From a virus: a stretch of DNA of 64,000 nucleotides. Position numbers and translations under genes: made by a program. Shown piece by piece: positions 1-55,975 of this stretch. The notes under the pieces were generated by a model. The model saw only the letters and a list, made by a program, of their open reading frames with translations. It ran no database searches and had not been told where the DNA came from. Location of the stretch: positions 1 through 64,000 of IMG/VR virus record IMGVR_UViG_3300042564_002756; one strand, written 5' to 3'. Within the stretch, counting starts at the first letter, position 1; each line of letters starts with the position of its first letter.

Positions 1-1
1 C

Positions 2-4974
<4,973 letters not shown>

Positions 4975-4978
<4 letters not shown>

Positions 4979-5379
4979 CAACGGTTAATTTAAGTGCGCT
5001 TTTAGATGGGAATTATCTAGGATTTACTGGTTCCATAGGCTTTACTGGGTCAGTCGGGTTTACTGGATCTATAGGTCCTACTAATATTCCAGTAAATTCG
5101 CAAGCAGCTGGATATACACTCCAAGCTTCAGATGTGGGTAAATACATTAATATAACAAGTGGAAATGTTACAGTTCCGTCTGGAATATTTTCAAACGGTG
5201 ATGTTGTAACTGTATTTAATAATAAAGGTAGTACAATGTCCATTTTGGCAAGCGGTGTCACCCAATACTTTGCAGGAACAAACATTACAGGAACTTTAAC
5301 ATTGTCTCAAAGAGGTCTTGCAACTATTTTATGTGTAGGAACTAATATATTTGTAATATCCGGTGCAGGATTGTTTTGA
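4975..5379 (+). CDS. Short GFTGS adhesin, paralogue A
   Basis: 134 residues, overlapping the giant fibre stop by ATGA, so probably translationally coupled. The N-terminus ([16 protein letters not shown]) leads into a mini collagen stretch of four triplets, then an ~85-residue beta-rich domain ([14 protein letters not shown] to VISGAGLF). That domain is paralogous to the C-terminus of the protein at 6047: both share a DxGK start, a mid GVT-x(4)-AGT segment and an SGAG end. Likely a small fibre or tip protein of the virion. No enzyme motif is seen. Confidence 0.7.
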
Positions 5380-5380
5380 T

Positions 5381-6022: not shown

Positions 6023-6046
6023 ATAATCATATACATGGAGATATGA

Positions 6047-6718
6047 ATGACTACTAATTTATCAGATTTTTTAAGTAGTGGGTATGCAGGTTTTACTGGG
6101 TCAATTGGTTTAATTGGTGTTAGTGGTTCTTACGCAGCAGTGGGGTTTACGGGATCGGCAGGTTTCTTGGCAGATACATCAAACACCGCACCTTTTACTA
6201 CTACAGATGGTCATATGTGGTTTGATACCACCGATCTTTCTCTTTCAGTACTATACAACGATGGTGATAGTCTGCAATGGATTACTGTTACTGGCGCAAG
6301 AGGATTGACTGGGTATACTGGATCACTTGGTTTTACTGGAAGTAAGGGTGACATAGGATTTGTAGGTAGCCAAGGGCCAGCTGGTGGTTTTACAGGTAGC
6401 CAAGGATTTACTGGCAGTGCAGCACCAACAGGCATACCACAAAGCAACAACGTCGTTGTACTATCTTCTGATGCCGGAAAACACGTAAACACTACTGCAA
6501 ATGTAACAATAAACACGTCAACATCGTTTTCAATCGGGGATATGGTTTCTTTTTATAACTCGTCTAATACTGCTATAACTATTGTCTCTACTGGAGTTAC
6601 TCTACGTCTAGCAGGAACTTCAACTACTGGAAATAGAACATTATCTAAATTTGGGTTGGCTACTGCTTTATGTGTTAATGCCAATGACTACGCAATTTCT
6701 GGTGCCGGTATATCATGA
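6047..6718 (+). CDS. Short GFTGS adhesin, paralogue B
   Basis: 223 residues. Ribosome-binding site GGAG at 6037, and a weak late-promoter-like AATAAATA at 6018-6025 just upstream. N-terminus NLSDFLSSGYAGFTGS mirrors paralogue A. A middle module (DGHMWFDTTDLSLSVLYNDG) resembles the small 'HMWFDTT' modules found in phage fibres; then a second short Gly-X-Y stretch and a C-terminal domain homologous to that of paralogue A. Likely a structural adhesin. Confidence 0.7.
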   Translation: MTTNLSDFLSSGYAGFTGSIGLIGVSGSYAAVGFTGSAGFLADTSNTAPFTTTDGHMWFDTTDLSLSVLYNDGDSLQWITVTGARGLTGYTGSLGFTGSKGDIGFVGSQGPAGGFTGSQGFTGSAAPTGIPQSNNVVVLSSDAGKHVNTTANVTINTSTSFSIGDMVSFYNSSNTAITIVSTGVTLRLAGTSTTGNRTLSKFGLATALCVNANDYAISGAGIS

Positions 6719-7431: not shown

Positions 7432-7600
7432 TGGGCATTTGGAGTTTACAGGCACAATATCTTTATAAAGTACCAACAACCGTTTTTTCTGATAAGAATC
7501 TACATCAATACAGGTTATATAGAAGTTTCTGAAAAGCCACCAATTACGAATAATCAAATTCTATATAGGAACCCAAACAGATCCGTATAACGCAATTTGA
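7431..7600 (+). pseudogene. Possible frameshifted remnant of a small fibre-locus gene
   Basis: A 33-codon frame starts at 7431, overlapping the previous stop as TAATG, and ends at 7532. Coding-like peptide then continues in a second frame (INTGYIEVSEKPPITNNQ) and a third (KFYIGTQTDPYNAI, stop 7598-7600). Read together they look like one ~55-residue protein broken by two small indels. Alternatively only the 33-residue peptide is made, or the region is noncoding. Confidence 0.3.
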
Positions 7601-7617
7601 CCATAATAAAAGGATAA

Positions 7618-8697
7618 ATGATGTCAATAAACTTTCCCAACAGCCCCAGTGTAAACGACACATATCAGTTTAATAATCTAGTTTTTGTCTTTGACGGAAC
7701 TAAATGGAAAGTTGATGGGCAACTATCGTATATACAAGATGCAATACAATATATTCGTTCTGGAACACAAGCAGAGCGACCTACCGTGTCTGCAGCTACA
7801 ATTTACTATAACACTGATCTTGAAGGGTTAGAATTTTATTATCCTGATATTGATACATGGGAAGTAGTTTCTACATTTGCAAAACAAGTTGATCTAACTG
7901 CTGACAGCGGTCAGCTTGCTTATACCAGCCCAGGTACATATTCTTTTGTGTGTCCCGCAAACGTATACCAAGTTTACGTTGTTTGTGTTGGCGGCGGGGG
8001 TGGCGGATATCTTTCTGCTTCTGGAGGTTCCGGCGGTGGCGGCGGCGGTTTGGCCTGGTTAAATAATATACCAGTAACACCTGGGAGTAGTTACACTGTT
8101 GTTGTAGGTTTGGCGGGGCAATCGGGCGGAACACCCCAAGCGGGCGGAACCAGCTATTTTATTTCAGCATTAACTGTAGCAGGTGGCGGCGGCGCAGTCG
8201 CCGCCGTTGGCTTTTCCGGCGCGAGCGGATCAGGTGGCAGCTTTACTACTACTATTGGCCCCGGCGGCGGTGGGTTTGGCGGTATCGGAGGACAAAATAC
8301 AATCGGCAACTACTGCGGCGGCGGCGGGGGTGCAGGCGGCTATACTAGCAATGGAGGCGCAGGAAGCGGCTATAACACTGCAGGATTAAATGGAAATGGC
8401 GGTGGTGGTGGCGGCGGTGGGGGAACCAGCGCCATCTCCGGCCTTGGTGGTTCGGGCGGTGGCGTTGGAATTTTAGGTGCTGGAATTAGTGGCACCGGCG
8501 GCATGGCCGGCAACAACGGGTCGCGCGGTGGCGGCGGGTCTGGAGGGGTTGGTGGCGGTACACTCAACACGGGCGGTGCATATGGCGGCGGCGGCCCCGG
8601 TTCAGACGGCACAGCTTCCGGCGGGGGCACCGGCGCCGTTCGTATCATATGGGGTCCAGGTCGCTCGTTTCCCTCTACTAGTACAGGAGATGTATAA
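7618..8697 (+). CDS. Glycine-rich adhesin (Gly_rich_2-type)
   Basis: 359 residues. AAAAGGA precedes ATG 7618; the adjacent ATG 7621 is an equal candidate. The N-terminus (FPNSPSVNDTYQFNNLVFVF) is the widespread phage fibre module describing a window of 'SPSVNDTY...FDGTKW'. From residue ~115 a beta strand (YQVYVVCVGGGGGGY) enters a long poly-glycine sandwich (GGSGGGGGGLAW, SYTVVVGLAGQSG) ending in AVRIIWGPG, as in glycine-rich tip proteins functionally like T-even gp38 adhesins. The 8,000-8,650 stretch is visibly GC-richer than its surroundings because of GGC/GGT codons. Confidence 0.75.
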   Translation: MMSINFPNSPSVNDTYQFNNLVFVFDGTKWKVDGQLSYIQDAIQYIRSGTQAERPTVSAATIYYNTDLEGLEFYYPDIDTWEVVSTFAKQVDLTADSGQLAYTSPGTYSFVCPANVYQVYVVCVGGGGGGYLSASGGSGGGGGGLAWLNNIPVTPGSSYTVVVGLAGQSGGTPQAGGTSYFISALTVAGGGGAVAAVGFSGASGSGGSFTTTIGPGGGGFGGIGGQNTIGNYCGGGGGAGGYTSNGGAGSGYNTAGLNGNGGGGGGGGGTSAISGLGGSGGGVGILGAGISGTGGMAGNNGSRGGGGSGGVGGGTLNTGGAYGGGGPGSDGTASGGGTGAVRIIWGPGRSFPSTSTGDV

Positions 8698-8699
8698 TA

Positions 8700-9080
8700 A
8701 TGCTAGTTTCATATAAAACTGCACAACCACAAAAATTACCTATTGAGCATGTCGGAAAAAGTGAGCAAGAACTGAATGTTCTTGGATTTGTCATTTGTAC
8801 TGTAAAACCATCATACATTCCAGGACAAAAATTGTGGTGGGAAAATAATCAATGGACTATACAAGATCCAAATGAATCTGAACTTGCGATTCAATGGCAA
8901 AAAATAAAAACTGAATCTGAAAAACACTTGGCTGAAACTGATTATAAGGTGATCAAAGCATACGAGTTACAAGTACCAGTTAGCCCTGAATGGGTCGAGT
9001 ATAGACAAGCTCTTCGCGACATTTACAATAACGTGGCGGGCCTGAACCCGTTTGCGGTCGATTGGCCACAAAAACCATGA
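8700..9080 (+). CDS. Tail-fibre assembly chaperone-like protein
   Basis: 126 residues, starting two bases after the adhesin stop. The C-terminal part LAETDYKVIKAYE followed by PEWVEYRQALRDIYNNVAG and a final DWP is the signature of Tfa/phage tail assembly chaperone (APC) proteins, where the ETD(W/Y) and YRQALR motifs are conserved. It sits directly after the adhesin gene, as fibre chaperones usually do. Substrate is inferred. Confidence 0.65.
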   Translation: MLVSYKTAQPQKLPIEHVGKSEQELNVLGFVICTVKPSYIPGQKLWWENNQWTIQDPNESELAIQWQKIKTESEKHLAETDYKVIKAYELQVPVSPEWVEYRQALRDIYNNVAGLNPFAVDWPQKP

Positions 9081-9095
9081 GCTCTTATAGATAAA

Positions 9096-9103
9096 TATAA
9101 ATA
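9096..9103 (+). promoter_or_regulatory. T4-type late promoter TATAAATA
   Basis: Exact match to the T4 late -10 consensus, 35 bp before the start codon of the large glycosyltransferase gene. It implies late transcription of the glycan island. Confidence 0.65.
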
Positions 9104-9137
9104 CCATTGATTAACTTTTACGTGATGAGGATATATT

Positions 9138-12100
9138 ATGAAACTTGCAATAATAGACAAAATAGGTTTATGCTATGATGGAGATACTCTTTCTAAACAA
9201 GGACTCGGAGGCTCTGAATCCGCAGTCATCCTTATTTCAAAAGAACTTTCAAAAATCGGATTTGAGGTCACCGTATATAATAACTGCAAGGACGGCTCGA
9301 ACTCAAAACCAGGACTTTATGATGGAGTCCGATATGTCGATAACTCCGATGCTAAATTTGATGAAACAGACTACGAAGCCGTAATTGTTTCTAGAACTGT
9401 AGTACCATTTATTTCTAATGATTGGCCGTTTATACACAAAGCAAAGAAACGTATTCTTTGGTTACATGATACATTTATAGAAGGTGATAATCTATTAGAA
9501 GATCTTGTTGTCTCTGGAAAAATAGATCACGTATTCACACTTTCTGACTGGCACACGTCATATATACTTACCTGTCAACACGGCAAGAAACGAAACCACG
9601 AAGTACTTAAGAAATCAATATTTCAAACTCGTAATGGCGCCGTTTGCCATATTCCAGAAGTAGATCTATCAAAGAAAGATCCAAATCAATTTGTCTATAA
9701 TGCATCGGCAACAAAAGGTATGTTGCCTCTAGTAGAACATATTTGGCCAGAGATAAAGAAAAGAATCCCAGAAGCAAAACTTTCTATTATTGGTGGTTAC
9801 TATCGGTTTCGTGATGGAGCTGAACCTGATGCTCAAGAAAATACAGTTTCACAACTTGCCGCAAGAGAAGACTTAAAAAACCTCGGAATTACATTTACTG
9901 GAGTAATTCCACAGCATGAAATAGCAGAGATACTTGCAAAATCTTGGATGATGCTTTATCCAGGTGCATTTCCAGAAACATTCGGAATTTCATCCCTTGA
10001 ATCACTTCTATACAAGACACCTCTTGTCACCACAAGATTTGGTGCACTCGAAGAAACAGCAATAGATCTTGCCTGTTATCATATTGACTATGCAATTGAA
10101 CCGAATGTTTTATTTCCACATATTGATAAAAAAATTCAGGTGCAAAAGTTCTTAGAAACTTTCTTTGCTGCATATAATAACCCATATCTACACCAACAAA
10201 AACAAAATTACTGCGATATTGTCAAAGATGTTACAGGCTGGAATACAGTTGCACTACAATGGAAACAGTTTCTTTATTCGATACTTGGGAATTTTCTTTC
10301 AGTAGATGATTATAGAAAAGTCACTCGAATCAACCAAAAAGTAGCTCGTGTCTTTGGAAGAACAGGAAATATGCCTGCTAATAAACAGTATAGTTCATCT
10401 GAAGATCAGAAACGAATTGTAGTTATATCACCTTTTTGGAATGCAGAAAACTATATTCGAAAGAATATATTATCAATTGCTACGCAAGATTATAATAACT
10501 ACGTGCATATTCTAATAGATGATAATTCAGATGATAAGTCCTTTCAAGTAGCAAAAGAGACTATTAATAGTTTACCAGAAAAACTTCAGAGTAAATTTAG
10601 ATTAATTCAAAATTTAGAAAATATCGGTGCTATTGCAAATCAAATAGCTGGTATTAGTCATTGCACCATGGATGATATTGTTATGTTATTAGATGGTGAT
10701 GATTGGTTAATAAACAATAACACACTATTTCACTATTATAATGATCTATATGCACAAGGTTACGAATTTACATATGGATCTATGTGGTCTCTAACAGATA
10801 ATATCCCATTAATAGCTCAAGAATATCCAATTGATGTTAAAAAGAATAAAAAATATAGAACACATCAGTTTAATTGGAAAATTCCATATACACATTTAAG
10901 AACATGTCTTAGCAAACATTTCTTTTCACTTGATATTGAAAAATTCAAAGTAGATGGAAAATGGATGAAATCAGGTCACGATAATCCGCTATTCTATGAA
11001 TTAATCGAGAAGATAGAGCCAGAGAAAATATACTGTAATAGAGAAATAGTTTGCAATTACAATGATTTAAACCCATTAAATGATTACAAGATAAATGGTG
11101 TTGAGCAAAATAGAAATGCAAATATGTCATATAGTAAAAAATTCTCAGTCATAGTTCCGACAATGTGGCGGTCTAAACCACTATTCAATAAATCACTTGA
11201 AAGATTGGTCCAGCAAGATTTAGTCGGTGAAATTATAGTAATAAATAATGATGTAATCCACACACCTGATTGGATTGTACTACAAAATCCAAAAATAAAA
11301 ATGCTAAATCAAGAGGCTAACATAAAAGTTAACCCTGCATGGAATTTAGGTGCAAAAGAAAGTTCTTATGATATAATATGTATAATAAATGATGATCTTT
11401 CATTTGATCCAATGTTATTTAATAAAATTTCTAATCACATCAATGACAAGATAGGTGTGTATGGATTTATAGTCGGTGGTCATAAATATAATCAACCAGA
11501 ATTAACAGATGGTTCAATAGATCTAATAGAATGGTCACAAGATAAATCTGCTTATGGGTTTGGTCAACTCATTATAATGAATAAAAATGATTGGGTTCCA
11601 ATACCTGAAGGTTTGGACGTATATTTCGGTGATGATTTTATCTTACATAATACTATAAACTCTGGAAAGAGTGTATATCTAATATCAAATATAAATTACG
11701 AGGAAGATTTTGGTGCAACATCAAGAGATCTTGACATATGGAAAGAATCCCATGATAAAGAAAAGCCAATCTTTGAAAAATGGTTAAAGGGTGATAAACA
11801 CAAAATGAATAAAAAAATTCTTATTGCAATACCAACAAATAAGTATATTGAAGTAGAAACATTCAAAAGTATTTGGGATTTAGAAATACCAACTGGTTAT
11901 GAAGTTGAGTTTCAGTACTTTTTCGGGTATCAAGTAGATCAAATACGAAATCTAATTGGAGAATGGGCTAAAAGATATGATTATCTATTGTCCATAGATT
12001 CAGATATTATAATTCCAAAAGATGCACTTAAGAAAATGATTGCTGCTGACAAAGACATAGTTACTGGAATGTATATTCAACGAATACCAGATACTCATAC

Positions 12101-12509
12101 TCTTGAGATATACATGGTAGATCCAACCGGTGGCATTATTAATATCCCTCATAATTTAATTAAGATACATAATGGTTTGGTTGAAATAGCAGCCTGTGGA
12201 TTTGGTTGCTGTTTAGTAAAAAGTGATGTATTCAGAAAAATGGAATACCCACATTTCTATTATCAATCTGCAATAAATCATAAAGATACAGTATCAGAAG
12301 ATATCTATTTCTGCAAGAAAGCAAGAGATAATGGATTTAAAGTTTGGGTAGATACAACTATTACATGCGATCATAAAGGTTCAACTTTCTTTAAAGTTAA
12401 AAGTGAAGTTAAACCAATAGAAATTCCAAAACAAGTAGAAGTTAAAAAAGATGAAACTGGTGTGACTGTAATACCTGATAGTTATAGAAAAGAGAGAATC
12501 TTTAAATGA
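9138..12509 (+). CDS. Four-domain glycosyltransferase (GT4 + three GT2-like domains)
   Basis: 1,123 residues. Residues ~1-390 form a GT-B/GT4 enzyme: GGSE near residue 23, a domain-2 strand AKLSIIGGYY, and FPETFGISSLESL with the acidic E-x7-E sugar-nucleotide signature. Residues ~425-650 are a GT-A/GT2 domain (VVISPFWNAENYIRKNILSI, LLDGDDW as the DxD). Residues ~662-880 are a second GT2-like domain (FSVIVPTMWRSK, CIINDD). Residues ~889-1090 are a third (KKILIAIPTNKY, LLSIDSDIIIP). No membrane segment, so it probably acts in the cytoplasm. Such chaining suggests sequential assembly of an oligosaccharide. ATGA overlap with the next methyltransferase gene. Acceptor unknown. Confidence 0.8.
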   Translation: MKLAIIDKIGLCYDGDTLSKQGLGGSESAVILISKELSKIGFEVTVYNNCKDGSNSKPGLYDGVRYVDNSDAKFDETDYEAVIVSRTVVPFISNDWPFIHKAKKRILWLHDTFIEGDNLLEDLVVSGKIDHVFTLSDWHTSYILTCQHGKKRNHEVLKKSIFQTRNGAVCHIPEVDLSKKDPNQFVYNASATKGMLPLVEHIWPEIKKRIPEAKLSIIGGYYRFRDGAEPDAQENTVSQLAAREDLKNLGITFTGVIPQHEIAEILAKSWMMLYPGAFPETFGISSLESLLYKTPLVTTRFGALEETAIDLACYHIDYAIEPNVLFPHIDKKIQVQKFLETFFAAYNNPYLHQQKQNYCDIVKDVTGWNTVALQWKQFLYSILGNFLSVDDYRKVTRINQKVARVFGRTGNMPANKQYSSSEDQKRIVVISPFWNAENYIRKNILSIATQDYNNYVHILIDDNSDDKSFQVAKETINSLPEKLQSKFRLIQNLENIGAIANQIAGISHCTMDDIVMLLDGDDWLINNNTLFHYYNDLYAQGYEFTYGSMWSLTDNIPLIAQEYPIDVKKNKKYRTHQFNWKIPYTHLRTCLSKHFFSLDIEKFKVDGKWMKSGHDNPLFYELIEKIEPEKIYCNREIVCNYNDLNPLNDYKINGVEQNRNANMSYSKKFSVIVPTMWRSKPLFNKSLERLVQQDLVGEIIVINNDVIHTPDWIVLQNPKIKMLNQEANIKVNPAWNLGAKESSYDIICIINDDLSFDPMLFNKISNHINDKIGVYGFIVGGHKYNQPELTDGSIDLIEWSQDKSAYGFGQLIIMNKNDWVPIPEGLDVYFGDDFILHNTINSGKSVYLISNINYEEDFGATSRDLDIWKESHDKEKPIFEKWLKGDKHKMNKKILIAIPTNKYIEVETFKSIWDLEIPTGYEVEFQYFFGYQVDQIRNLIGEWAKRYDYLLSIDSDIIIPKDALKKMIAADKDIVTGMYIQRIPDTHTLEIYMVDPTGGIINIPHNLIKIHNGLVEIAACGFGCCLVKSDVFRKMEYPHFYYQSAINHKDTVSEDIYFCKKARDNGFKVWVDTTITCDHKGSTFFKVKSEVKPIEIPKQVEVKKDETGVTVIPDSYRKERIFK

Positions 12510-13210
12510 GTGAATACAATCGTGAATATGCAATGAGTGAGTTTCAACAGCATGGTGAAACTTGGATCCAAAATAGATTTAATGGGCAGTTTAAAACAAT
12601 ATTTGATGTTGGATCTAATATCGGTGAATGGACAAGAATGACTCGATCATTTCAACCAAATGCTGATATACACATGTTTGAAATAGTTCCTGATACTTAC
12701 AGTAAAATGCTTAGAAATATTGAACTAGACAATAAAATGATTCCGAATAGTTTCGGTTTACTAGATAAATCTGGCCCTGTGCCAATGAAGCATAAAACCG
12801 AATATGATTCACTCAGTACAATAGTTACAGATTTAAGATTAGATGATAGTATTCCGATAAATGGTCTTGCATTTACAGGTGACGATTATGTTGATAGTCG
12901 TAGACTTGAAATGATAGATTATCTAAAAATAGATACCGAAGGTGCAGAAGGAAAGGTATTTAAAGGGTTTGAAAAGACGCTCAAAGAAGGTAAGGTTAGA
13001 ATTATTCAATTTGAATATAGTTTCATATGTGTGCTTACCAAATGGATGTTAATAGATAGTTACAATTTCTTGGAACCACTAGGATTTAAATTGGGTAAGT
13101 TAAAACAAGACAGCATAGAGTTTCATGACTATACTCTGATAGATGAAGATTTTAAAGGTCCAGAATATGTAGCAGTTCATCAAAATTCTTGGCACCTGTT
13201 TGGGTTATAA
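12506..13210 (+). CDS. FkbM-family SAM-dependent methyltransferase
   Basis: 234 residues. SAM motif I is FDVGSNIGEW (residues ~33-42), followed by the acidic strand MFEIVP, DYLKIDTEGAE (the FkbM hallmark) and IIQFEY. FkbM enzymes usually O-methylate sugars. The start overlaps the preceding glycosyltransferase by ATGA, supporting a role in modifying the same glycan. Confidence 0.82.
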   Translation: MSEYNREYAMSEFQQHGETWIQNRFNGQFKTIFDVGSNIGEWTRMTRSFQPNADIHMFEIVPDTYSKMLRNIELDNKMIPNSFGLLDKSGPVPMKHKTEYDSLSTIVTDLRLDDSIPINGLAFTGDDYVDSRRLEMIDYLKIDTEGAEGKVFKGFEKTLKEGKVRIIQFEYSFICVLTKWMLIDSYNFLEPLGFKLGKLKQDSIEFHDYTLIDEDFKGPEYVAVHQNSWHLFGL

Positions 13211-13213
13211 ATA
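13206..13213 (+). promoter_or_regulatory. T4-type late promoter TATAAATA
   Basis: Exact late consensus overlapping the stop codon of the FkbM gene, 32 bp before ATG 13246. It gives the second half of the glycan island its own late start. Confidence 0.6.
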
Positions 13214-13245
13214 TCACAATATAATTGAATAGAGGTGACTATACT

Positions 13246-14292
13246 ATGGAAATCAAAAAAGGTTTTAACGAAGTAGAATCAAAGTATAAGTTCGGTAATA
13301 ATGAATCATTTACCAAATATGTACTTGAACGAGGTGGCAAGATAAAGCCTCTCATTATCCCATCAGAACTAACTAATGGAACTGGATTAATGAATCCGAC
13401 CATTTATAGATTGCCTGATGGTAGATTAATTGTCAATATCCGACACGTAAATTATACATTCTATCATTCCGAACGAAAACTATTGCAGCACCAATGGGGG
13501 CCACTTACTTATTTACACCCTGAAAATGATATGCATTTACGAACAACTAATTATTACTGTGAATTGGATAATGATCTTAATATCACTGGATTCTGTAAAA
13601 TAGATACATCAAAATTTGACACATATGAGCCAATGTGGGATTTTGTTGGTCTCGAAGATGTCCGTCTTGTACTTTGGAATGAAAAACTTTATGCAACAGG
13701 TGTTCGTAGAGATACAACTACAAATGGTCAGGGTAGAATGGAGTTATCAGAACTTCAATACATTGAAGGTAAAATGACTGAAGTTTCTAGAGTCAGAATA
13801 CCACCGCCAAAAGATCCAAATTCATATTGTGAAAAGAATTGGATGCCAGTTATTGATGAAGACTATACGTATGTAAAATGGTCTAATCCAACAGAGGTAG
13901 TCAAAGTAGATCCTATTGATGCTAAATCAACTACAATAAAATTAAGTGAATACTTTCCAGCACCAAACGATTTTAGAGGTGGAACACAAGTAATTCCACT
14001 TGGTATTGATGGGCAAAGAATAGCTCTTGTTCATGAAGTTGATTTATTTAGAAGTGAACACGATAGAAAAGATGCAGTTTATAGACATCGCTTTATAGTC
14101 TGGGATAAAGATTGGAATATTGTAAAGTATACAAATGATTTTTCAATGATGAATGGACACGTAGAATTTGCAGTTGGAATGTGTCATCATAATAATGGTG
14201 AAGTTTTAATTACATTTGGTTTTCAAGATAATGCTGCATATATTTTGCAAACTAATATTCAGGACATAATTGATTTTATAAATGATAATTGA
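13246..14292 (+). CDS. GH130/GH43-like beta-propeller glycosidase or glycan phosphorylase
   Basis: 348 residues from ATG 13246, chosen because AGAGGTG sits eight bases upstream; a TTG at 13225 would add seven residues. Motifs GLMNPTIYRLPDGRLIVNIR and GLEDVRLVLWNEKLYATGVR match the blade pattern of five-bladed propeller enzymes (GH130, GH43/32-like; the 'EDxRL' strand carries an acidic residue). Context suggests trimming or rearranging a glycan made by neighbouring glycosyltransferases. Activity is inferred; a lectin-like inactive propeller is possible. Confidence 0.6.
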   Translation: MEIKKGFNEVESKYKFGNNESFTKYVLERGGKIKPLIIPSELTNGTGLMNPTIYRLPDGRLIVNIRHVNYTFYHSERKLLQHQWGPLTYLHPENDMHLRTTNYYCELDNDLNITGFCKIDTSKFDTYEPMWDFVGLEDVRLVLWNEKLYATGVRRDTTTNGQGRMELSELQYIEGKMTEVSRVRIPPPKDPNSYCEKNWMPVIDEDYTYVKWSNPTEVVKVDPIDAKSTTIKLSEYFPAPNDFRGGTQVIPLGIDGQRIALVHEVDLFRSEHDRKDAVYRHRFIVWDKDWNIVKYTNDFSMMNGHVEFAVGMCHHNNGEVLITFGFQDNAAYILQTNIQDIIDFINDN

Positions 14293-15109
14293 TTGCTTTT
14301 CTTATTTTAATGAGGAAGAACTTCTAGAATTAAGATTAAGACTACTATATAATAAAGTAGATAAATTCATAATTACAGAAGCAGACCACACTCATAGCGG
14401 TTTACCGAAACAAATGACACTTTTAAACACTCTCAAGAGAATGGATATTTCTCTTGAGAAAATCTGGTATGTTCCAGTTATGTTGCCTTCACTTGCACAA
14501 GAACCGAATAATTGGGTACGTGAGCGTATGCAAAGAGATGCAGCTACATCATATATTAGAGAAACAGACATTGCATTTATTGGTGATTGTGATGAGATTT
14601 TAAATCCGGCACATATAGAATATATGAAATACATCAAAGAAAATCACCCAAATGAGATTTTGAGAACACCACTTGCATATTTGTGTGGTAGAGCAGATTT
14701 AAGAGTTTATAATCAAAATGAAGAACAGATGCAATGGAATACCCCATTTTTAGTTTCTGGACAACAATTAAAACATTATACACTTTCAGAAATTCGTGAA
14801 GATCATGCTTGGGGTTTTCATAGATTGCAAGATATTTTTATAACAGAAGATGGTTATTTAAAAGAACTTGGTTGGCATTTTACTTGGATGGGAAATCAAG
14901 AAAGATTAAAAACAAAAATTAAAAATTATAGCCACGCTGGTGAACATACTCTAGATGAAAACTTTAGTGCATCAGAAAATTCATTTGATCCACTCGGAAG
15001 AAAAGATCATATATTAAAAAGATATAATATAAACAATTTACCGAACTTGATATTAGAAAATAACAGAATTAGAAAGTATCTATTACCAGATGAAAATACT
15101 TTTTCATGA
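14282..15109 (+). CDS. GT17-family glycosyltransferase
   Basis: 275 residues, overlapping the propeller gene by 11 bp. The opening IIDCFSYFNEEELLELRL, FIITEADHTHSG, the run RERMQRDAA and FIGDCDEILNP (acidic DxDE) match GT17, the family of beta-1,4-N-acetylglucosaminyltransferase III and many bacterial or phage relatives. A GlcNAc donor is a family-level guess. No membrane segment. Confidence 0.72.
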   Translation: MIIDCFSYFNEEELLELRLRLLYNKVDKFIITEADHTHSGLPKQMTLLNTLKRMDISLEKIWYVPVMLPSLAQEPNNWVRERMQRDAATSYIRETDIAFIGDCDEILNPAHIEYMKYIKENHPNEILRTPLAYLCGRADLRVYNQNEEQMQWNTPFLVSGQQLKHYTLSEIREDHAWGFHRLQDIFITEDGYLKELGWHFTWMGNQERLKTKIKNYSHAGEHTLDENFSASENSFDPLGRKDHILKRYNINNLPNLILENNRIRKYLLPDENTFS

Positions 15110-16049
15110 AAATCAATTAACAGAAAGAGGCACTTCTGTTGCAATGTTTGATTATGCATATTATGCAAGAGAACTATTAGATATAGAACCAATAATTACT
15201 TATAGAAATGAAAATAGTAAACCACAAGCAATTCAAAGGTTTAAAAATAATTTTGAAGTATTTTCATATGACACATTTGATGATGTAGAAACTTACATAT
15301 CTAAAAATTCAATAGATGCTTTCTATGCTATTAAATATGGATATCATGATGGAATAGTTTCTTCTAATACTAAAAATTTAATTCATTCTGTATTCTGCAA
15401 ACATAGAGAATATATGCACGGTGAAAGATATGCTGTAGTTTCTGAATGGCAATCACATTTTAATGACATACCTTATGTACCACATATTTTAAATCTTTAT
15501 GATACCACCGAAACTTTGAGAGATAATCTTAATATACCAAAAGATGCACTGGTAATAGGACGTCATGGTGGTTTTGATACATTTAATATTGATTTTGTAA
15601 TTGATAGCATTAAAGAGATATTAGATAAAAGATCAGATATTTGGTTTTTATTCTTAAATACCGAAAAGAAATTAGAGCATCAAAGAGTCATATATCTAGA
15701 TGCAACAGTAGATTTAAAAGAAAAAACAAAATTTATTAACACATGTGACGCAATGATACATGCCAGAGATTACGGTGAGACCTTCGGTCTTTCAGTTTTA
15801 GAATTTGCGGCAAAAGATAAACCTATTATCTCATATGATAATGAATATCTACAGACAAATCACCAATTAGGCGGAAGAAACCATTTTCTATTTTTACAAG
15901 ATCATTGTTATAAATATTCACACAAAGGAGATTTAGATAACATATTTCTTAATATTGAAAGAAATACTTCGTTTAATACGAGTTATCTATTGGATAAATT
16001 TTCTCCGCAATCTGTAATGAAATTATTTGAAGAAAGATTTTTAGTATGA
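15090..16049 (+). CDS. GT4-like (GT-B) glycosyltransferase
   Basis: 319 residues. N-terminal Rossmann half starts KILFHENQLTERGTSVAMFD; C-terminal half has ALVIGRHGGFDTFN and DYGETFGLSVLEFAAKDKP, which holds the conserved GT4 Glu pair that binds the nucleotide-sugar. Overlaps the GT17 gene by 20 bp and the next gene by ATGA. Most similar in architecture to GT-B enzymes of LPS or capsule loci. Confidence 0.72.
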   Translation: MKILFHENQLTERGTSVAMFDYAYYARELLDIEPIITYRNENSKPQAIQRFKNNFEVFSYDTFDDVETYISKNSIDAFYAIKYGYHDGIVSSNTKNLIHSVFCKHREYMHGERYAVVSEWQSHFNDIPYVPHILNLYDTTETLRDNLNIPKDALVIGRHGGFDTFNIDFVIDSIKEILDKRSDIWFLFLNTEKKLEHQRVIYLDATVDLKEKTKFINTCDAMIHARDYGETFGLSVLEFAAKDKPIISYDNEYLQTNHQLGGRNHFLFLQDHCYKYSHKGDLDNIFLNIERNTSFNTSYLLDKFSPQSVMKLFEERFLV

Positions 16050-16666
16050 GTCAATATCCAAATTTACAAATAGATAGCCCTATTGAGACATATGAAATTA
16101 TGACTCAACACATAAAGACACTGAAAGGTGTTGAGGGACTAAGCTGTGAAGTAGGACTTCGCCGAGGCGGGGGAACTAAAGTAATACTCGATTCATTTAT
16201 GGAAAATGAAGATAAACGTGTTCATATCTGCATGGACCCATATGGAAATATTATTTACAATGATATAGTAGGTCCACATCGAAGTGACTATACAGATGAT
16301 ATGAAAAATGAGACACTTGCAGAACTATACCGATATGCATTTGATAATAGAATTAATATTCTTTTCTTTAATATGGAAGACTCTGAATTTTATAGAAGAT
16401 TTACAGATGGTGTTCCTGTTTACGATCAAGAAAAGAAAATGCTGAATACATATTGTTTTGTCCATATTGACGGTCAGCATGATATAGAATCAGTCAGATT
16501 AGCCGCAAATTTCTTTATTCCAAGAATGTCAATTAGAGGGCTTCTTGTTTTTGATAACACTGATCATTATGATCATTCACCTATACACAATTTAATGCTT
16601 AATAACAAGTTTATTATGGTTGACGATGTATTGAATAGAAAACTATATAAGAGAGTTTTGATATGA
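16046..16666 (+). CDS. Class I methyltransferase (family 24 / cephalosporin-hydroxylase-like)
   Basis: 206 residues. Motif SCEVGLRRGGGTKVILDSF replaces the usual E-x-G-x-G SAM loop; CMDPYGN and FVHIDGQHDIESV then LLVFDNTDHYDH are typical of Methyltransf_24 proteins, where the DGxH and DN residues bind metal. Probably modifies a sugar. ATGA overlaps on both sides place it in one translational unit. Confidence 0.65.
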   Translation: MSQYPNLQIDSPIETYEIMTQHIKTLKGVEGLSCEVGLRRGGGTKVILDSFMENEDKRVHICMDPYGNIIYNDIVGPHRSDYTDDMKNETLAELYRYAFDNRINILFFNMEDSEFYRRFTDGVPVYDQEKKMLNTYCFVHIDGQHDIESVRLAANFFIPRMSIRGLLVFDNTDHYDHSPIHNLMLNNKFIMVDDVLNRKLYKRVLI

Positions 16667-17916
16667 TAGAAGATTTACTTAATCAATTTGCTTTAAATCC
16701 AAATGATCCAGAGATTAATTTTAAAATGGCAAGATACTATGATGAAATAGGTCAGACTGCATCTGCTGTTTCCTATTATATTAGAACAGCTGAAAGAACA
16801 GAAGATCTTCTTCTGCGATATGAATGTCTATTGCATGGTGCAAATTGCTTTGAGCGACAAGGTACTCGTAGATTTACTGTAAAAGGTATGCTTCAACAGG
16901 CAATTACTATTTTACCGAAAAGACCTGAGGCATATTATATATTAAGTAGACTATATGAATACAATGATACAAATGAGGGTAGATACTTAGACTCATATAC
17001 AATGTGTTCTATAGCACTTCAAGTTTGTGATTTTAATAATAAAGAATTGAGAGTACCAGTAAATTATCCAGGTAAATATGCTCTATTATTTCAAAAGGGC
17101 GTAATGGGTTGGTGGAATGGTTTACAAGAAGAAACAAAATCAATTCTTTTGGATCTTCATATGAATTGGGACATGAATGATGAATTTGCAAATTCAGTTA
17201 AGAATAATTTAGTAAATATGAATGCATTTGCTTCCAAATCATTGACAACATACTCTAAATCTAAATTATATAAATTGCGCTGGAAATTTGAAAGTCTTGA
17301 AGATATAGAACAGAATTATTCTGAAGCATATCAAGATATGTTTGTTCTTACTGTATTAAATGGTAAAAAGAATGGAACATATGTAGAAATTGGATCAGGT
17401 CATCCTACATATGGAAATAATAGTTATCTATTGGAAAAAGATTTTGGCTGGACTGGAATGTCAGTTGATATAAGTGAAGAATTTATAGCAAAACATAATG
17501 CAGAAAGAAAACATACAGCAATATTAAAAGATGCAACAACAATAAATTATGGTACTTATTTTAAGTCACTCGGTTTTGGTACTGAAATAGATTACTTACA
17601 GATTGATGTTGATCCAGCTGAAATATCACTGAAAGTTCTTTACACAATCCCGTTTGAAACTTACAAGTTTTCAGTAATTACGTTCGAACACGACCATTAC
17701 GCAGACCCAAAAAGTAATGTCAGAGAAAAGGCAAGACAATTCTTAGAATCATTTGGTTATGTTCTTGCGGTGTCAAATATCTCACCAGATGAAAATAGAC
17801 CATATGAAGATTGGTTTGTACATAGAGATGAATATGAAAAAGTAAAACATCTAGTTGATACTTCAGATAAAACAAAATGTGCAGAAAACTTTATGTTTGG
17901 TGCCTATAATGAATAA
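16663..17916 (+). CDS. TPR + FkbM-like methyltransferase fusion
   Basis: 417 residues. Residues ~1-190 are helical repeats resembling TPRs (NPNDPEINFKMARYYDEIGQ; KRPEAYYILSRLYEY), as found in glycan enzymes. Residues ~220-400 form an FkbM-type methyltransferase: YVEIGSGHPTYGNNSYLLE, VDISEEF, DYLQIDVDP, ITFEHDHYAD. The usual FkbM 'DTEG' is DVDP here, so the active-site loop is altered. ATGA overlap with the upstream gene; its last codons overlap the next gene start. Confidence 0.65.
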   Translation: MIEDLLNQFALNPNDPEINFKMARYYDEIGQTASAVSYYIRTAERTEDLLLRYECLLHGANCFERQGTRRFTVKGMLQQAITILPKRPEAYYILSRLYEYNDTNEGRYLDSYTMCSIALQVCDFNNKELRVPVNYPGKYALLFQKGVMGWWNGLQEETKSILLDLHMNWDMNDEFANSVKNNLVNMNAFASKSLTTYSKSKLYKLRWKFESLEDIEQNYSEAYQDMFVLTVLNGKKNGTYVEIGSGHPTYGNNSYLLEKDFGWTGMSVDISEEFIAKHNAERKHTAILKDATTINYGTYFKSLGFGTEIDYLQIDVDPAEISLKVLYTIPFETYKFSVITFEHDHYADPKSNVREKARQFLESFGYVLAVSNISPDENRPYEDWFVHRDEYEKVKHLVDTSDKTKCAENFMFGAYNE

Positions 17917-18694
17917 GATACCTGTGATAGGAGCTGCTGTTGTAAATAGCAGTTTCTGGGTTTCAAGATTACTTTTAAGTGTTGACTATCCAGTGGAAAA
18001 TTTTGTAATTATAAACAATAATGGACGTGGTATTATTGATGAAGAATTAAACAATATAGTCAAGTTAAAGCACCGCTATATAGATAAAATAAAAGTAGTT
18101 CATATGCCTGCTAATATAGGATGTGCAGGTGCTTGGAATTTAATTATTAAGTGTTATATGAATGCAGCATATTGGATAATTGCTAATGATGATGTTGCTT
18201 TTAAACCAGGATTATTAAAAGAATTTAATGATATCATGATAAATGATTCAGAAATTGGAACAATACATCCAAACCCTGGTGATTTTGAAATTGGTGCGTG
18301 GGATTTATTTGCAATACACGAAAGAGCAGTTAAGAAACTAGGGTTATTTGACGAAAATACATATCCCGCATATTGTGAAGATGCAGATTATATTATGAAA
18401 ATGGTGAACAAAGGTGTCAAGAAAATTGTAGGATTACAATCAGGTTATTTACATGGTACTGGAGATGCCGAAGCATACTATGAACATGGAAGACAAACTG
18501 AAAAATCTGACGAGAATTTAGCACAAATATTACAAATTTCTAATGCACTTAATATAGAATATCTTACCCGCAAATGGGGTCCTGGTTGGAGAACTGTATG
18601 TCCACATGTACTACCCTTTGCTGGAGAAGAACGAGATATTAGTTATTCACTATATGATCTCGAATTTGTCAGAAGAAAACATACAGGATTTTAA
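17909..18694 (+). CDS. GT2-like glycosyltransferase
   Basis: 261 residues from ATG 17909 (MNKIPVIGAAVVN), which overlaps the previous gene by 8 bp; a TTG at 17855 would only add a tail read inside that gene. GT-A motifs: VIINNNGRG, PANIGCAGAWN, IIANDDVAF (DxD equivalent NDD), ENTYPAYCEDADY. These are the standard rhamnosyltransferase-like GT2 pattern. Donor and acceptor unknown. Confidence 0.72.
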   Translation: MNKIPVIGAAVVNSSFWVSRLLLSVDYPVENFVIINNNGRGIIDEELNNIVKLKHRYIDKIKVVHMPANIGCAGAWNLIIKCYMNAAYWIIANDDVAFKPGLLKEFNDIMINDSEIGTIHPNPGDFEIGAWDLFAIHERAVKKLGLFDENTYPAYCEDADYIMKMVNKGVKKIVGLQSGYLHGTGDAEAYYEHGRQTEKSDENLAQILQISNALNIEYLTRKWGPGWRTVCPHVLPFAGEERDISYSLYDLEFVRRKHTGF

Positions 18695-18695
18695 A

Positions 18696-19433
18696 ATGTT
18701 ACCAATTTCAGTAGGAATACTTTCGTGGAACTCACCTGAAGTTCTAGAAGAGACAATAAAAACTTATATAATGAATGGACTTTTTAATCTAGTTTCAGAT
18801 ATAACAATTCTATTTCAAGAAGTTACTAAAGAGGATAAAGCACTTGCTAAAAAATATGGCATTCCTTTCATTGGTTTAGATACAAATGTAGGCATTGGTA
18901 AAGCAATGCAAATACTAGCCGAACAAGCAACAGAAGAATATTTTCTATTTCTTGAAAATGATTGGCAATTAATTGAAACTAAAGAAACTACAAAGAAAAG
19001 ATTAATTGGATCCATAGATCTTTTAGAAGAAGATTATCAGTGCATAAGACTAAGATCTAGACGAACACCTGGATATCCTTTATTTTCAGAAGTTTATAGG
19101 GATAATGAATTAAATCATTACGATGAAAATACTGGTTTAATTTCTCCGCATCTCTTTGATTGTATTCATTGGATTGAAGAACCTGATCTAAAATTTGAGC
19201 AAATTAGAAAGCATAAATATCACTACATTACAACATCGCGTTGGTCTAATTGGACCAATAATCCGTGTTTATTCAAGACAGAATTTATTCCAGATATTAT
19301 TGATCCATTTATCCAAGATAATCTTCTTGAACCATCAATTTCAAGATGGTGGGCAGAACAGAATTTTAATGTTGCATGGGGTGAAGGTTTATTTAAACAT
19401 GTTGATTTTAAGAAATATGGAGATATATATTAA
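18696..19433 (+). CDS. GT-A glycosyltransferase-like protein
   Basis: 245 residues from ATG 18696, one base after the previous stop; in-frame starts further upstream lie inside the preceding gene. Strand SVGILSWNSPEVLEETI opens the GT-A fold; TNVGIGKAMQIL and YFLFLENDW (END as DxD equivalent) follow. The C-terminal half, about residues 105-245, has no recognisable family and many aromatic residues. Divergent GT2 is the best call. Confidence 0.6.
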   Translation: MLPISVGILSWNSPEVLEETIKTYIMNGLFNLVSDITILFQEVTKEDKALAKKYGIPFIGLDTNVGIGKAMQILAEQATEEYFLFLENDWQLIETKETTKKRLIGSIDLLEEDYQCIRLRSRRTPGYPLFSEVYRDNELNHYDENTGLISPHLFDCIHWIEEPDLKFEQIRKHKYHYITTSRWSNWTNNPCLFKTEFIPDIIDPFIQDNLLEPSISRWWAEQNFNVAWGEGLFKHVDFKKYGDIY

Positions 19434-20209
19434 TGCATAAAGTAATTCTTGTAACTGGTGGTTTCGATCCTCTACATAGTGGACATATTGCATATTTTGA
19501 AGAAGCAAAGAAATTAGGTAATACATTGGTAGTCGGTGTCAATAGCGATGAATGGTTATCTCGTAAAAAAGGCCAACCATTTATGGATGTGAATGAGAGA
19601 ATGTCAATCATAAAACATCTATCCATGGTAGACGCTGCTATTATATTTGATGATTCTGATGGGACTGCAAAAGCAGCAATAAGATATTGTTTAAATGCAT
19701 ATCCAGAGTCCGAAATTATCTTTGCAAATGGTGGTGATAGAACAAAAGCAAATATACCTGAAATGGAACTTGTTTGTGATGATTCCGAAACAAAGAGACT
19801 AAAATATGTTTTTGGTATCGGTGGAACACATAAAATGAATTCCAGTAGTAAAATACTGACCGAATGGAAGACACCAAAAACAGAACGAAAGTGGGGTTAT
19901 TATAGAGTATTACACTCTGATGGACCATCACTCAAAGTCAAAGAGTTAGTTGTGGAACCCGGGAAATCATTGAGTGTTCAGAAACACAATCTAAGAAGTG
20001 AACATTGGATAGTTTCTGAAGGTATTGCGACAGTAAATTATGGTGACCATCCCGCCGCTCTTTCAACTACAAAATTGGAAAAACACGATGAGATTCATAT
20101 CTCAGTTGGCAAATGGCATCAACTTGTAAATGAGACGAACAATGAAGTCCGAATTGTTGAAATCCAATTCGGAGTTAATTGTATCGAGGAAGATATTATT
20201 CGGATTTGA
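19433..20209 (+). CDS. Cytidylyltransferase-cupin fusion (nucleotide-sugar enzyme)
   Basis: 258 residues. Residues 1-145 are an RfaE/TagD-type nucleotidyltransferase: GGFDPLHSGH with the HxGH site at 15-18, SDEWLSRKKG and a late MNSSSKI loop. Residues ~152-250 are a type II mannose-6-phosphate isomerase-like cupin, with WGYYRVLHSDG, QKHNLRSEHWIVSEG (metal His/Glu cluster) and KWHQLVNE. The cupin half normally follows a GDP-mannose pyrophosphorylase, so this pairing with a CTP-type enzyme is unusual. It would supply an activated sugar or polyol for the island. It ends the island. Confidence 0.75.
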   Translation: MHKVILVTGGFDPLHSGHIAYFEEAKKLGNTLVVGVNSDEWLSRKKGQPFMDVNERMSIIKHLSMVDAAIIFDDSDGTAKAAIRYCLNAYPESEIIFANGGDRTKANIPEMELVCDDSETKRLKYVFGIGGTHKMNSSSKILTEWKTPKTERKWGYYRVLHSDGPSLKVKELVVEPGKSLSVQKHNLRSEHWIVSEGIATVNYGDHPAALSTTKLEKHDEIHISVGKWHQLVNETNNEVRIVEIQFGVNCIEEDIIRI

Positions 20210-20239
20210 TTCTGTTTTATTTTCATGGATGATAATCCA

Positions 20240-20267
20240 ATTATACCATACATGTAGAACCTGTCAA
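20240..20267 (-). promoter_or_regulatory. Consensus sigma70-like promoter facing the glycan island
   Basis: On the minus strand TTGACA (20267-20262), 16 bp spacer, TATAAT (20245-20240). Both hexamers are perfect. It points left, antisense to the fusion gene and the glycan island; no minus-strand gene lies downstream nearby. Confidence 0.55.
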
Positions 20268-20288
20268 CCAAAAGTGTCGTTCATTAAG

Positions 20289-20296
20289 TATAAATA
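20289..20296 (+). promoter_or_regulatory. T4-type late promoter TATAAATA
   Basis: Exact late consensus, 31 bp upstream of gp13; it starts the neck-packaging-tail transcription unit. Confidence 0.7.
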
Positions 20297-20326
20297 GAAA
20301 AAACTTACACATCATTAGGTGATAAA

Positions 20327-21079
20327 ATGGCTCAACCAAGAACTAGAAGAGATTTTAAAGAGTATTGCCTAAGAAAATTAGGCCACCCGGTTATTCAGAT
20401 AAATGTGTCAGATGAACAAATTGATGATCGTGTAGAAGAAGCATTATCGTTCTGGCAAGATTATCACTACAATGGTTCCGATCTTGTTTACCTTAGACAC
20501 ATGTTGACTCAAGGAGAAATAGATCAAGGTTATGTGGATTTAAATAACACTGAATATGCTAATTTACTTGGTGTTGTTCGCATTTTTGATCTATATTCAT
20601 CTATTTCAACTGGTACTGGCATGTTTAACGTGCAATACCAATTTGTTCTAAATAACTTGCAGGATCTTACAGGTTACTCTATTCAAAACTATTATATGAC
20701 TATGCAGCATATCCGTTTTATCCAAGAATGGCTTGTTGGTTTACCTTTAATTAGATATAACAAGCATACTAATAAACTTTACATTGATCAGAGTAAAGCA
20801 AAATTAACCCCTGGCTATTATGTTATTATTGAAGCGTATGCACCTATTGATGATGCAAATCCAGATATTTGGAGTGATAGGTTTCTTCAAAATTATACAA
20901 CTGCACTTATTAAAGAACAGTGGGGTTCAAATCTTACCAAGTTCGTGAATATGCAACTTGTTGGTGGCATCCAATTCAACGGCGAACAAATACTTGCTGA
21001 TGGAAGAGATGAACGCAAGGCTATGGAAGAAGAAGCAAAAAGTTCTCTACAACCACTTACTTACAATTTCTCTGGATAA
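20327..21079 (+). CDS. 13: gp13-like neck protein
   Basis: 250 residues (T4 gp13: 309). The N-terminus QPRTRRDFKEYCLRKLGHPV and INVSDEQIDDRVEEALSFWQ is the conserved head-closure helix region of T4-like gp13. It forms the head-completion/neck ring with gp14. Gene order (13, 14, 15, 16, 17) supports the call; a homing endonuclease separates it from gp14. Confidence 0.88.
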   Translation: MAQPRTRRDFKEYCLRKLGHPVIQINVSDEQIDDRVEEALSFWQDYHYNGSDLVYLRHMLTQGEIDQGYVDLNNTEYANLLGVVRIFDLYSSISTGTGMFNVQYQFVLNNLQDLTGYSIQNYYMTMQHIRFIQEWLVGLPLIRYNKHTNKLYIDQSKAKLTPGYYVIIEAYAPIDDANPDIWSDRFLQNYTTALIKEQWGSNLTKFVNMQLVGGIQFNGEQILADGRDERKAMEEEAKSSLQPLTYNFSG

Positions 21080-21082
21080 TAA

Positions 21083-21763
21083 ATGGCAAACTATAGTCAC
21101 ATACCATATACTTACATGATAGGTTGGTCCAAACAAAAAAAATATTATTACGGTGTGCAATTCGGTAAAAATGCAAACCCAAATAATTTATGGAAAACTT
21201 ATTTTACATCTTCTAACAATGTAAAAAAGTTTATAGAAAATTATGGTGATCCAGATATAATAGAAATACGAAAAACTTTTTTGACCCCGTGCAAAGCTAG
21301 AGCATGGGAAACTAAAGTGATTCAACGAATGAATTTAGTTGAAAATCAAAATTGGTTAAATAAAACAGATAACACATCAAAATTTTATTTTGAAGGTCCT
21401 CGAGGCCCCAGAAGTAAAGAGCACACTGAAAAACTTAGAAAATCTCATATTGGTAAAAAAATAACAGCCGAACACAAAGAAAAGCTTCATACTGGAAGAA
21501 GAAATTCAAAAAACACTCCAGAACACACTGCAGCTATACTTAAAGCAGTTAAAGGGAAGAAACATACCGAAAAATCCAGAAAAAATATGGCTGATGCTTA
21601 TGCAAAAAGAGATATCGAAGAAGTTAAAAATAATGCTAGTAATGCTGGAAAGAAAAGTGCCGCGTTATACAAGAATGATCCAGAAAGACAAGCTGCACAT
21701 AGTGAAAGAATGAAAATGTGGTGGGCAGCGCGCGGACAACTTCTATCTATGGAAGGACAATAA
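21083..21763 (+). CDS. Homing endonuclease (GIY-YIG-like with NUMOD3 repeats)
   Basis: 226 residues. N-terminal YTYMIGWSKQKKYYYGVQFG resembles the degenerate GIY-YIG start seen in phage homing endonucleases, followed by a CKARAWETKVIQRMN helix and WLNKTDN. From residue ~110 there are NUMOD3-type DNA-binding motifs (SKEHTEKLRKSHIGKK; TAEHKEKL; NTPEHTAAILKAVKGKKHTE). It sits free-standing between gp13 and gp14, starting 3 bases after gp13. Likely a selfish mobile gene. Its stop lies one base before the inferred gp14 start, so it may have replaced the gp14 leader. Confidence 0.8.
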   Translation: MANYSHIPYTYMIGWSKQKKYYYGVQFGKNANPNNLWKTYFTSSNNVKKFIENYGDPDIIEIRKTFLTPCKARAWETKVIQRMNLVENQNWLNKTDNTSKFYFEGPRGPRSKEHTEKLRKSHIGKKITAEHKEKLHTGRRNSKNTPEHTAAILKAVKGKKHTEKSRKNMADAYAKRDIEEVKNNASNAGKKSAALYKNDPERQAAHSERMKMWWAARGQLLSMEGQ

Positions 21764-55679: not shown

Positions 55680-55975
55680 CTATTTTCATCAGTGATAGTG
55701 AATACATTTCTTGCATAGTCCTGTAGAAAATGTTCTTCTTTTCTTAGATTTAATTGTAGTGATGTTATTGCTTCTTTCAATAAAATTATGGATGGCAGTA
55801 TTTCATTAAAATTCTCTTCGAGATTATAACCAAGTCTAACTAATGATTCAAGAGATGAACTTAAGATTGTATCAGTGATTACTTCTACTTCATAGTCCAG
55901 TTTAGGTTCTTGAATAGTTGTTGTGTTTGTTTTACTCAATCGTGATTTAAAATCAATTATTTCAGCCATTTCCAT
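55676..55975 (-). CDS. Small conserved hypothetical protein
   Basis: 99 residues. AEIIDFKSRLSKTNT then a helical C-terminus (LESLVRLGYNLEENFNEILP). Resembles unannotated small T4-like proteins near rnh. Overlaps the glycosyltransferase gene by 14 bp. Confidence 0.55.
   Translation of the reverse strand: MEMAEIIDFKSRLSKTNTTTIQEPKLDYEVEVITDTILSSSLESLVRLGYNLEENFNEILPSIILLKEAITSLQLNLRKEEHFLQDYARNVFTITDENS

Follow-up and report, generated by a model that had tools for sequence, protein, structure and literature searches.

What do the glycosyltransferases encoded beside the tail fibre genes of a T4-like phage act on? The question is raised by a ten-gene island in the window analysed here, which comprises the first 64,000 nucleotides of a 137,360 bp virus contig (IMG/VR record IMGVR_UViG_3300042564_002756) whose TerL protein is closest to T4-like phages of Sinorhizobium (58% identity). 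The island occupies positions 9138-20209 on the + strand and holds ten contiguous + strand open reading frames (ORFs), g1-g10, flanked by fibre genes and gp13. Two modules make up the island: Module A (g1 and g2) and Module B (g3, g7 and g10). Comparison with related loci makes it fairly probable that the island puts glycans on the phage's own collagen-like fibres late in infection, with Module A serving G[FY]T-GSx fibres and Module B serving fibres of the GTQ type. The proposal turns on the following features:

1..4978, + strand: collagen-like tail fibre with G[FY]T-GSx repeats and an S74-type C-terminal chaperone (gene cut by the record start)
9138..12509, + strand: g1, multidomain glycosyltransferase, Module A (Pfam)
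12506..13210, + strand: g2, FkbM-type methyltransferase, Module A (Pfam)
13246..14292, + strand: g3, five-bladed propeller with GH130/GT108 fold, Module B (AlphaFold, Foldseek)
16663..17916, + strand: g7, TPR domain plus FkbM methyltransferase, Module B (Pfam)
19433..20209, + strand: g10, RfaE/TagD-like nucleotidyltransferase plus mannose-6-phosphate-isomerase-type cupin (Module B in sister phages)

We observe a pairing between fibre repeat type and enzyme. Two sets of viral contigs were picked solely by repeat DNA, 49 contigs of at least 15 kb with a GFTGSx pattern and 49 of similar size with a GTQGxQ pattern. The GFTGSx-picked contigs encode g1 in 29 of 49 cases and g3 in none, and the GTQGxQ-picked contigs encode g3 in 17 of 49 cases (44-56% identity) and g1 in none, there being only weak single-domain matches of at most 34% identity (Fisher p for the g1 pairing 9e-12, relatedness ignored). 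The g1 matches, from which the weak single-domain match of G070 was excluded, are nearly all 48-60% identical over the N-terminal 660 residues. They fall into 23 clusters at 90% identity and 16 at 70%, and the g3 sequences into 16 and 14 clusters, respectively. Most of the 29 contigs have g1 head-to-head with a GFTGS collagen ORF across a gap of 46-127 bp. Among cultured phages a close g3 homologue occurs in two, DSL-LC02 and S-SCSM2R; the fibres of both are of the GxQ type, and in DSL-LC02 g3 and the GxQ fibre gene are divergent and 113 bp apart (phage DSL-LC01 has a distant g3 match, at 23.8%). When 25 kb were compared with 50,697 phage records by megablast, there were no matches, so comparisons were made at the protein level or with environmental contigs. 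A plain fibre-presence test (collagen within 10 kb) was dropped: the g1-negative sister phages have large collagen-like fibres rich in GTQ, GIQ and GLQ, which are seen only in stretches wider than 10 kb. An earlier note on this DNA had proposed comparing island presence with fibre repeat type; the comparison favours the fibres for both g1 and g3, each with its own repeat. The occurrence of this pairing across differing phages suggests that the fibres are self-glycosylated by type-matched enzymes.

Several observations weigh against this reading. The contigs are fragments, repeats break assemblies, and the two sets are unlike in phage composition (a TerL match in 19 versus 9 of 49). g1 is missing from 20 of the 49 GFTGS contigs, some of them short, and no cultured phage with a close g1 was found. 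The window phage itself keeps g3-g10 with no GxQ fibre, L033 combines g1 with a short GxQ piece, and L021 and L046 are g1 contigs lacking collagen. Fold matches cannot separate protein from glycan acceptors, and the enzyme labels are clustered on the gp13 tree (three to four changes), so that the naive p overstates independence. Finally, in L034 and L035 g1 lies near topoisomerase/helicase genes, and collagen is absent across up to 54 kb:

L034 10001-12628 and L035 10001-12628: topoisomerase-like and helicase-like genes adjoin g1, which lies apart from any fibre of the contig

The clustering of labels would also fit a hitch-hiking explanation, in which fibre cassettes recombine in blocks, as the fibre regions of T4-like phages are known to do modularly, and g1 is linked to GFTGS fibres with no biochemical tie. 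We regard this as improbable. The TerL proteins of GFTGS contigs range from 65% down to about 30% identity, or none was found, and contigs of 291 and 383 kb are included; the short head-to-head pairing is seen in phages across this range. L036 and L028 carry g1 at 63-72% identity, and their gp13 is undetected or poorly matched. A g1-fibre pairing that holds across such divergent TerL argues against backbone linkage. The non-collagen parts of the fibres are likewise diverse, with 18 clusters of 38 at the N-terminal end and 19 of 60 at the C-terminal end (the largest being the S74-type chaperone), so that the shaft repeat is what g1 loci share and tip linkage does not account for the association. 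Hitch-hiking would, moreover, leave both the mirror-image g3/GxQ pairing and the conserved catalytic residues of g1 unexplained.

The fibre genes span 1-9080. The main fibre frame is open from base 2 to 4978, and in L014, a near-identical contig, the full ORF has 1628 aa, compared with 1262 aa counted from the internal ATG at 1190, which is therefore not the true start. The window fibre contains about 349 Gly-X-Y triplets, with no proline at X and one at Y. Threonine makes up 43% of Y positions and lysine 14%, and FT/YT accounts for 36% of triplets; the lysine-rich reading of these triplets in the earlier note is less apt than one centred on threonine at Y. In g1 loci as a group threonine fills 34% of the Y positions; g3 loci have glutamine at 75% of Y and threonine at 28% of X. 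We infer that the acceptors are the GFT/GYT threonines, with serine possible too. No GxQ collagen was found in the window phage genome, and the remaining fibre genes are as follows:

4975..5379, + strand: small fibre protein with a short GFTGS stretch (7 triplets)
6047..6718, + strand: second fibre protein with a short GFTGS collagen stretch (17 triplets)
7618..8697, + strand: Gly-rich fibre protein (L019 has this protein at 76% identity and g1 at 77%)

The domain content of Module A is consistent with assembly of a glycan by one polypeptide. The lead gene, g1, encodes not one but three or four transferase domains, namely a GT4 domain (residues 1-380), a GT2 domain (425-668), an extra GT-A domain (669-890) and a GT21-like GT-A domain (890-1097). 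The core shared with relatives is GT4, GT2 and the GT21-like GT-A, and the extra GT-A of the window protein (about 669-890) is found in few of them. Catalytic motifs are invariant or near-invariant in 35 relatives (E280/E288 of the GT4 EX7E motif, D519xD521, D954xD956 and E1054-D1055). A copy of g2, 71-77% identical, follows g1 in five contigs (L020, L024, L025, L027 and L050), and of 35 aligned g1 relatives 16 end in a fused FkbM methyltransferase domain at the C-terminus. Many relatives have a single GT4-GT2-GT-A-FkbM protein, and g1 and g2 thus seem to be one functional unit that is split in the window phage. Structural comparison gives class-level evidence: the GT4 part of the g1 model resembles many GT4 enzymes, including GtfA and SdgB, which are protein O-GlcNAc transferases, and the complete model is similar in fold to multidomain synthases. 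In viral contigs g1 homologues often have fibre genes on one side and gp13 on the other; g2 is frequently present with them, g3-g10 rarely. We also considered g1 as a host gene and rejected this, as 84,980 species of bacteria and archaea, when scanned, yielded one full-length relative (L457), which sits on a T4-like phage contig with GYTGS/GFTGS collagens divergently oriented to g1. In L051 (6856-10953) and L052 (7692-11789), the N-terminal GT4 region of g1 is duplicated in tandem (1365 aa).

The predicted timing of expression bears on a further alternative, that the island glycosylates phage DNA in the manner of the T4 alpha- and beta-glucosyltransferases. Within 1-37100 the + strand has ten copies of the T4-type late promoter element TATAAATA and the - strand has none. 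Eight of the ten copies sit 22-52 bp upstream of a gene start, compared with 4.4% of positions expected (binomial p ~6e-10), and the genes so served include g1, g3, gp13, gp18, gp21, gp22 and gp23. The elements before the island and its downstream neighbour are:

9096..9103, + strand: T4-type late promoter element TATAAATA, 34 bp upstream of g1
13206..13213, + strand: late promoter element TATAAATA, 32 bp upstream of g3
20289..20296, + strand: late promoter element before gp13

The late promoters at 9096 and 13206 that the earlier note had named are thus backed by their position relative to the g1 and g3 starts. Canonical late genes have the element at the same spacing, which supports late transcription of the island. 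This timing and the fibre linkage both fit poorly with DNA modification, the Pfam and PHROG matches of the island include no T4 alpha- or beta-glucosyltransferase type, and a base-hypermodification pathway is not obvious in the ORF lists, although no systematic search for one was made. A DNA target is suggested by little beyond the T4-like nature of the phage, and we consider it very improbable.

The rest of the island adds glycosyltransferases and a methyltransferase between the genes of Module B, and gp13 follows it:

14282..15109, + strand: g4, GT17 glycosyltransferase (PF04724, E 6e-17)
15090..16049, + strand: g5, GT4-like glycosyltransferase (sub-threshold PF00534/PF13692)
16046..16666, + strand: g6, class I methyltransferase (Methyltransf_24; Pfam)
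17909..18694, + strand: g8, GT2-like glycosyltransferase (PHROG 29879, E 1e-21; PF00535, E 2e-4)
18696..19433, + strand: g9, GT2 glycosyltransferase (PF00535, E 4e-5)
20327..21079, + strand: gp13, neck protein and downstream boundary (ORF list; marker of the gp13 survey)

A Pfam scan of g1-g10 confirmed the glycosyltransferase and methyltransferase content, with GT4 in g1 and g5 (the latter under the cut-off), GT2 in g1, g8 (under the cut-off) and g9, and GT17 in g4. The ten contiguous genes, the families named for them and their placement between the fibres and gp13 are accordingly as the earlier note described. Its three methyltransferases are g2 and g7 (FkbM) and g6 (Methyltransf_24), and its activated-sugar enzyme is g10, which combines a cytidylyltransferase with a MannoseP_isomer cupin. 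It had also called the genes overlapping. The likely starts of g3, g8 and g9 are the revised ATGs at 13246, 17909 and 18696, and with these starts the overlaps come down mostly to short junctions. A scan of 8600-20400 for structured RNA families returned none.

Module B seems to have a different history from Module A. The AlphaFold model of g3 (pLDDT 87) matches the five-bladed propeller fold of GH130 phosphorylases and of the Leishmania GT108 mannosyltransferases MPT-1/2/4 in Foldseek (E 8e-9 to 2e-6), at about 10-15% identity and TM-scores of about 0.45-0.6. The glycoside hydrolase-like propeller of the earlier note is thus borne out by fold, though not by sequence, since g3 stays under the GH130 profile cut-off (PF04041, E 0.028, 13.8 bits versus 26); a g3 sequence profile run against the PDB returned nothing meaningful. 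A g3 homologue carries a beta-mannosyltransferase annotation in DSL-LC02, and g3 is a probable mannosyltransferase judging from the model. The TPR half of g7 accompanies g3 in 16 of 17 contigs, mostly directly downstream. In DSL-LC02 (L150 16965-19115) a TPR-FkbM protein is fused to a radical SAM/SPASM domain, beside the propeller gene and GTQ collagen.

A survey based on gp13 found that sister phages carry g3-g7-g10 immediately upstream of gp13, and that g1 is absent from the 80 loci surveyed save those of the window's own species. The closest relatives, L075 (gp13 92% identical) and L081 (85%), have most of g3-g10 and GxQ collagen and lack g1. Between related phages g1, g2 and g4-g9 vary, with g3, g7 and g10 steadier; g4, g5, g6, g8 and g9 are found for the most part in close relatives. 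In the gp13 tree the window falls, with high support, inside the g3/GxQ clade, so the window phage seems to have switched from one fibre type to the other and acquired g1. The contig L019 shares the fibre genes f7618 and f8700 (70-76% identity) and g1 (77%) with the window at a gp13 identity of 65%, and these sequences are most simply read as a joint entry of fibre and g1. The island is not, then, the single unit for this fibre that the earlier note described: g3-g10 come from a GxQ-fibre lineage, and g1 and g2 belong with the GFTGS type.

This history leaves room for a mixed explanation, which overlaps the reading of the island as a fibre-glycosylating system on g1 and g2 and departs from it only on g3-g10. 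Module A would act on the fibre, and g3-g10 would produce a glycan of their own, destined for a different virion protein or for the host envelope. The retention of g3-g10 when the fibre type apparently changed, the near restriction of g4, g5, g6, g8 and g9 to close relatives and the lack of GxQ collagen in the genome all speak for such a division. However, g3 elsewhere tracks GxQ collagen, so that it too is usually partnered with a collagen-like fibre, and the retention of g3-g10 may merely reflect recent history. The mixed explanation is a real possibility, with the balance tilted somewhat against it.

A different target altogether is the host surface, where the enzymes would alter lipopolysaccharide or capsule late and so block superinfection or keep progeny from sticking to debris. 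The island's location matches that of the pelagimyophage host recognition cluster (HRC), a hypervariable structural-region island near gp14 of T4-like phages that likewise combines tail fibres and glycosyltransferases, and whose glycosyltransferases have been read as O-antigen modification (PMC7029224). As in the HRC, the window's island lies in the structural region by the neck genes (gp14 starts at 21873) with tail fibres, and its content varies strongly among relatives. VrlC borders the HRC on its other side, where the present record starts within the fibre gene; the accessible text of the HRC report does not describe a pairing of enzyme with collagen repeat. The RfaE/TagD-like character of g10, a resemblance of part of g1, confined to a single domain, to GtrB-like O-antigen conversion enzymes (phrog_841), and a second sugar-nucleotide island at 120.5-127 kb also point to the host surface. 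A host-surface role, on the other hand, does not predict that g1 and g3 follow shaft repeat types despite variable fibre ends, and late timing is ill-suited to early exclusion. No protein of g1-g10 has a convincing membrane or hydrophobic segment, and a Gtr-type membrane protein was not seen among them. Conversion of the GtrABC type was rejected for want of membrane-embedded Gtr/GtrA proteins in g1-g10. Of the two targets offered in the earlier note, the collagen-like fibres are favoured by the repeat-type pairing and host-surface action is conceivable chiefly for g4-g9; for the island as a whole we judge it unlikely.

The second sugar island lies on the - strand at 120,557-127,069 of the record (L011 18557-19617, L012 114-5569) and encodes three GT29-like proteins, a GT8-like protein, a DegT aminotransferase, a Gfo/Idh oxidoreductase and a hexapeptide acyltransferase, genes that together might suffice for synthesis of an amino sugar nucleotide. 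It is flanked by same-strand TATAAATA elements at 127761 and 120532. A lone GT4-family glycosyltransferase gene (55962-56918, - strand) stands apart from both islands. Elsewhere, the ORF lists place a homing-endonuclease-like gene between gp13 and gp14 (21083-21763), and inteins or homing endonucleases apparently split the ribonucleotide reductase and RecA-like genes (L010 15970-18987; L012 13017-15404). Judging from sequence, a nicotinamide phosphoribosyltransferase-like gene (L009 17236-18735) and a NUDIX gene (L009 19300-19980) suggest a NAD salvage pair.

Glycosylation of virion proteins by viral enzymes has parallels. The architecture of g1 and g2 is like that of the PBCV-1 A064R/A061L system (PMC9614988), in which A064R, a GT-GT-MT polypeptide, makes a methylated glycan tip on the virus's own virion protein; the likeness is one of architecture, and PBCV-1 is an algal virus with an N-linked capsid glycan and its GT families are unlike those of g1. 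The mimivirus enzymes L230 and R699 (PMC9546862, PMC9614988) glucosylate collagen and so provide a case of viral enzymes glycosylating a collagen-like protein, as we propose here. They act, however, on hydroxylysine produced by a lysyl hydroxylase, whereas g1-g10 have no Pfam match to GT25 or to a lysyl hydroxylase/GLT domain, no such enzyme was identified in the window, lysine is a minor component and threonine at Y is the likely site. Glycan-bearing Gly-X-Y regions are represented by Bacillus spore BclA-type proteins and Riftia collagen according to work cited in PMC9614988, PMC10141479 and PMC6953826, but these are cellular proteins. Among phages, the mycobacteriophages Che8 and Rita are described, in work by Freeman et al. 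2023 (cited by PMC11256854), as carrying glycans on virion proteins with phage glycosyltransferases implicated; those glycans are on siphovirus capsid proteins, whereas we propose fibres. The island has two of the features expected of virion glycosylation, namely intact catalytic motifs (EX7E, DxD, ED) and co-occurrence of enzyme and acceptor type. Glycosyltransferase islands beside fibres are already known. The repeat-type/enzyme pairing is not, as far as we found: no report of it for phage collagen was found in open-licence literature, and a search of GT108/GH130 literature found no match.

The protein target, linkage residue, sugars, enzyme chemistry and benefit that we propose would then fit together as follows. 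Module A would be an enzyme pair dedicated to G[FY]T-GSx collagen, in which the retaining GT4 and the GT-A domains of g1, within one polypeptide, would assemble a short oligosaccharide, most likely on threonine or serine of the Gly-X-Y shaft, and the g2 methyltransferase would cap this glycan with a methyl group. Module B (the g3 propeller, the TPR-FkbM protein g7 and g10) would be the counterpart set for GTQ-type collagen, presumably inherited from a GTQ-fibre ancestor, and may now serve the present fibre, another virion protein or nothing. Collagen-like fibres are frequent in phages, and to our knowledge the stability of their nearly proline-free triple helices is unexplained. The window fibre, being nearly proline-free, would have practically no hydroxyproline. 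Sugars on Y-position threonine could stabilise its triple helix, as reported for Riftia cuticle collagen, in which glycosylated threonine rather than hydroxyproline provides stability (Mann et al. 1996, Bann et al. 2000, both through PMC10141479 and PMC6953826); the glycan could also shield the fibre.

A broader generalisation, which we advance tentatively and at somewhat less than an even chance, is that matched shaft/enzyme pairs move between phage backbones, with proline-poor G[FY]T-GSx shafts paired with GT4-GT2-GT-A-FkbM enzymes, GTQ-GxQ shafts paired with a GH130/GT108-type mannosyltransferase and TPR-FkbM, and, in the G[FY]T-GSx type, sugars on Y-position threonine replacing hydroxyproline in stabilising the helix. 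Phage glycosyltransferases encoded beside fibres have so far been read as host-surface modifiers, and the pairing described here points to the fibre as substrate. If this is true, phage enzymes would join the small set that glycosylate a collagen-like protein, and bacterial viruses would have a sugar-stabilised collagen.

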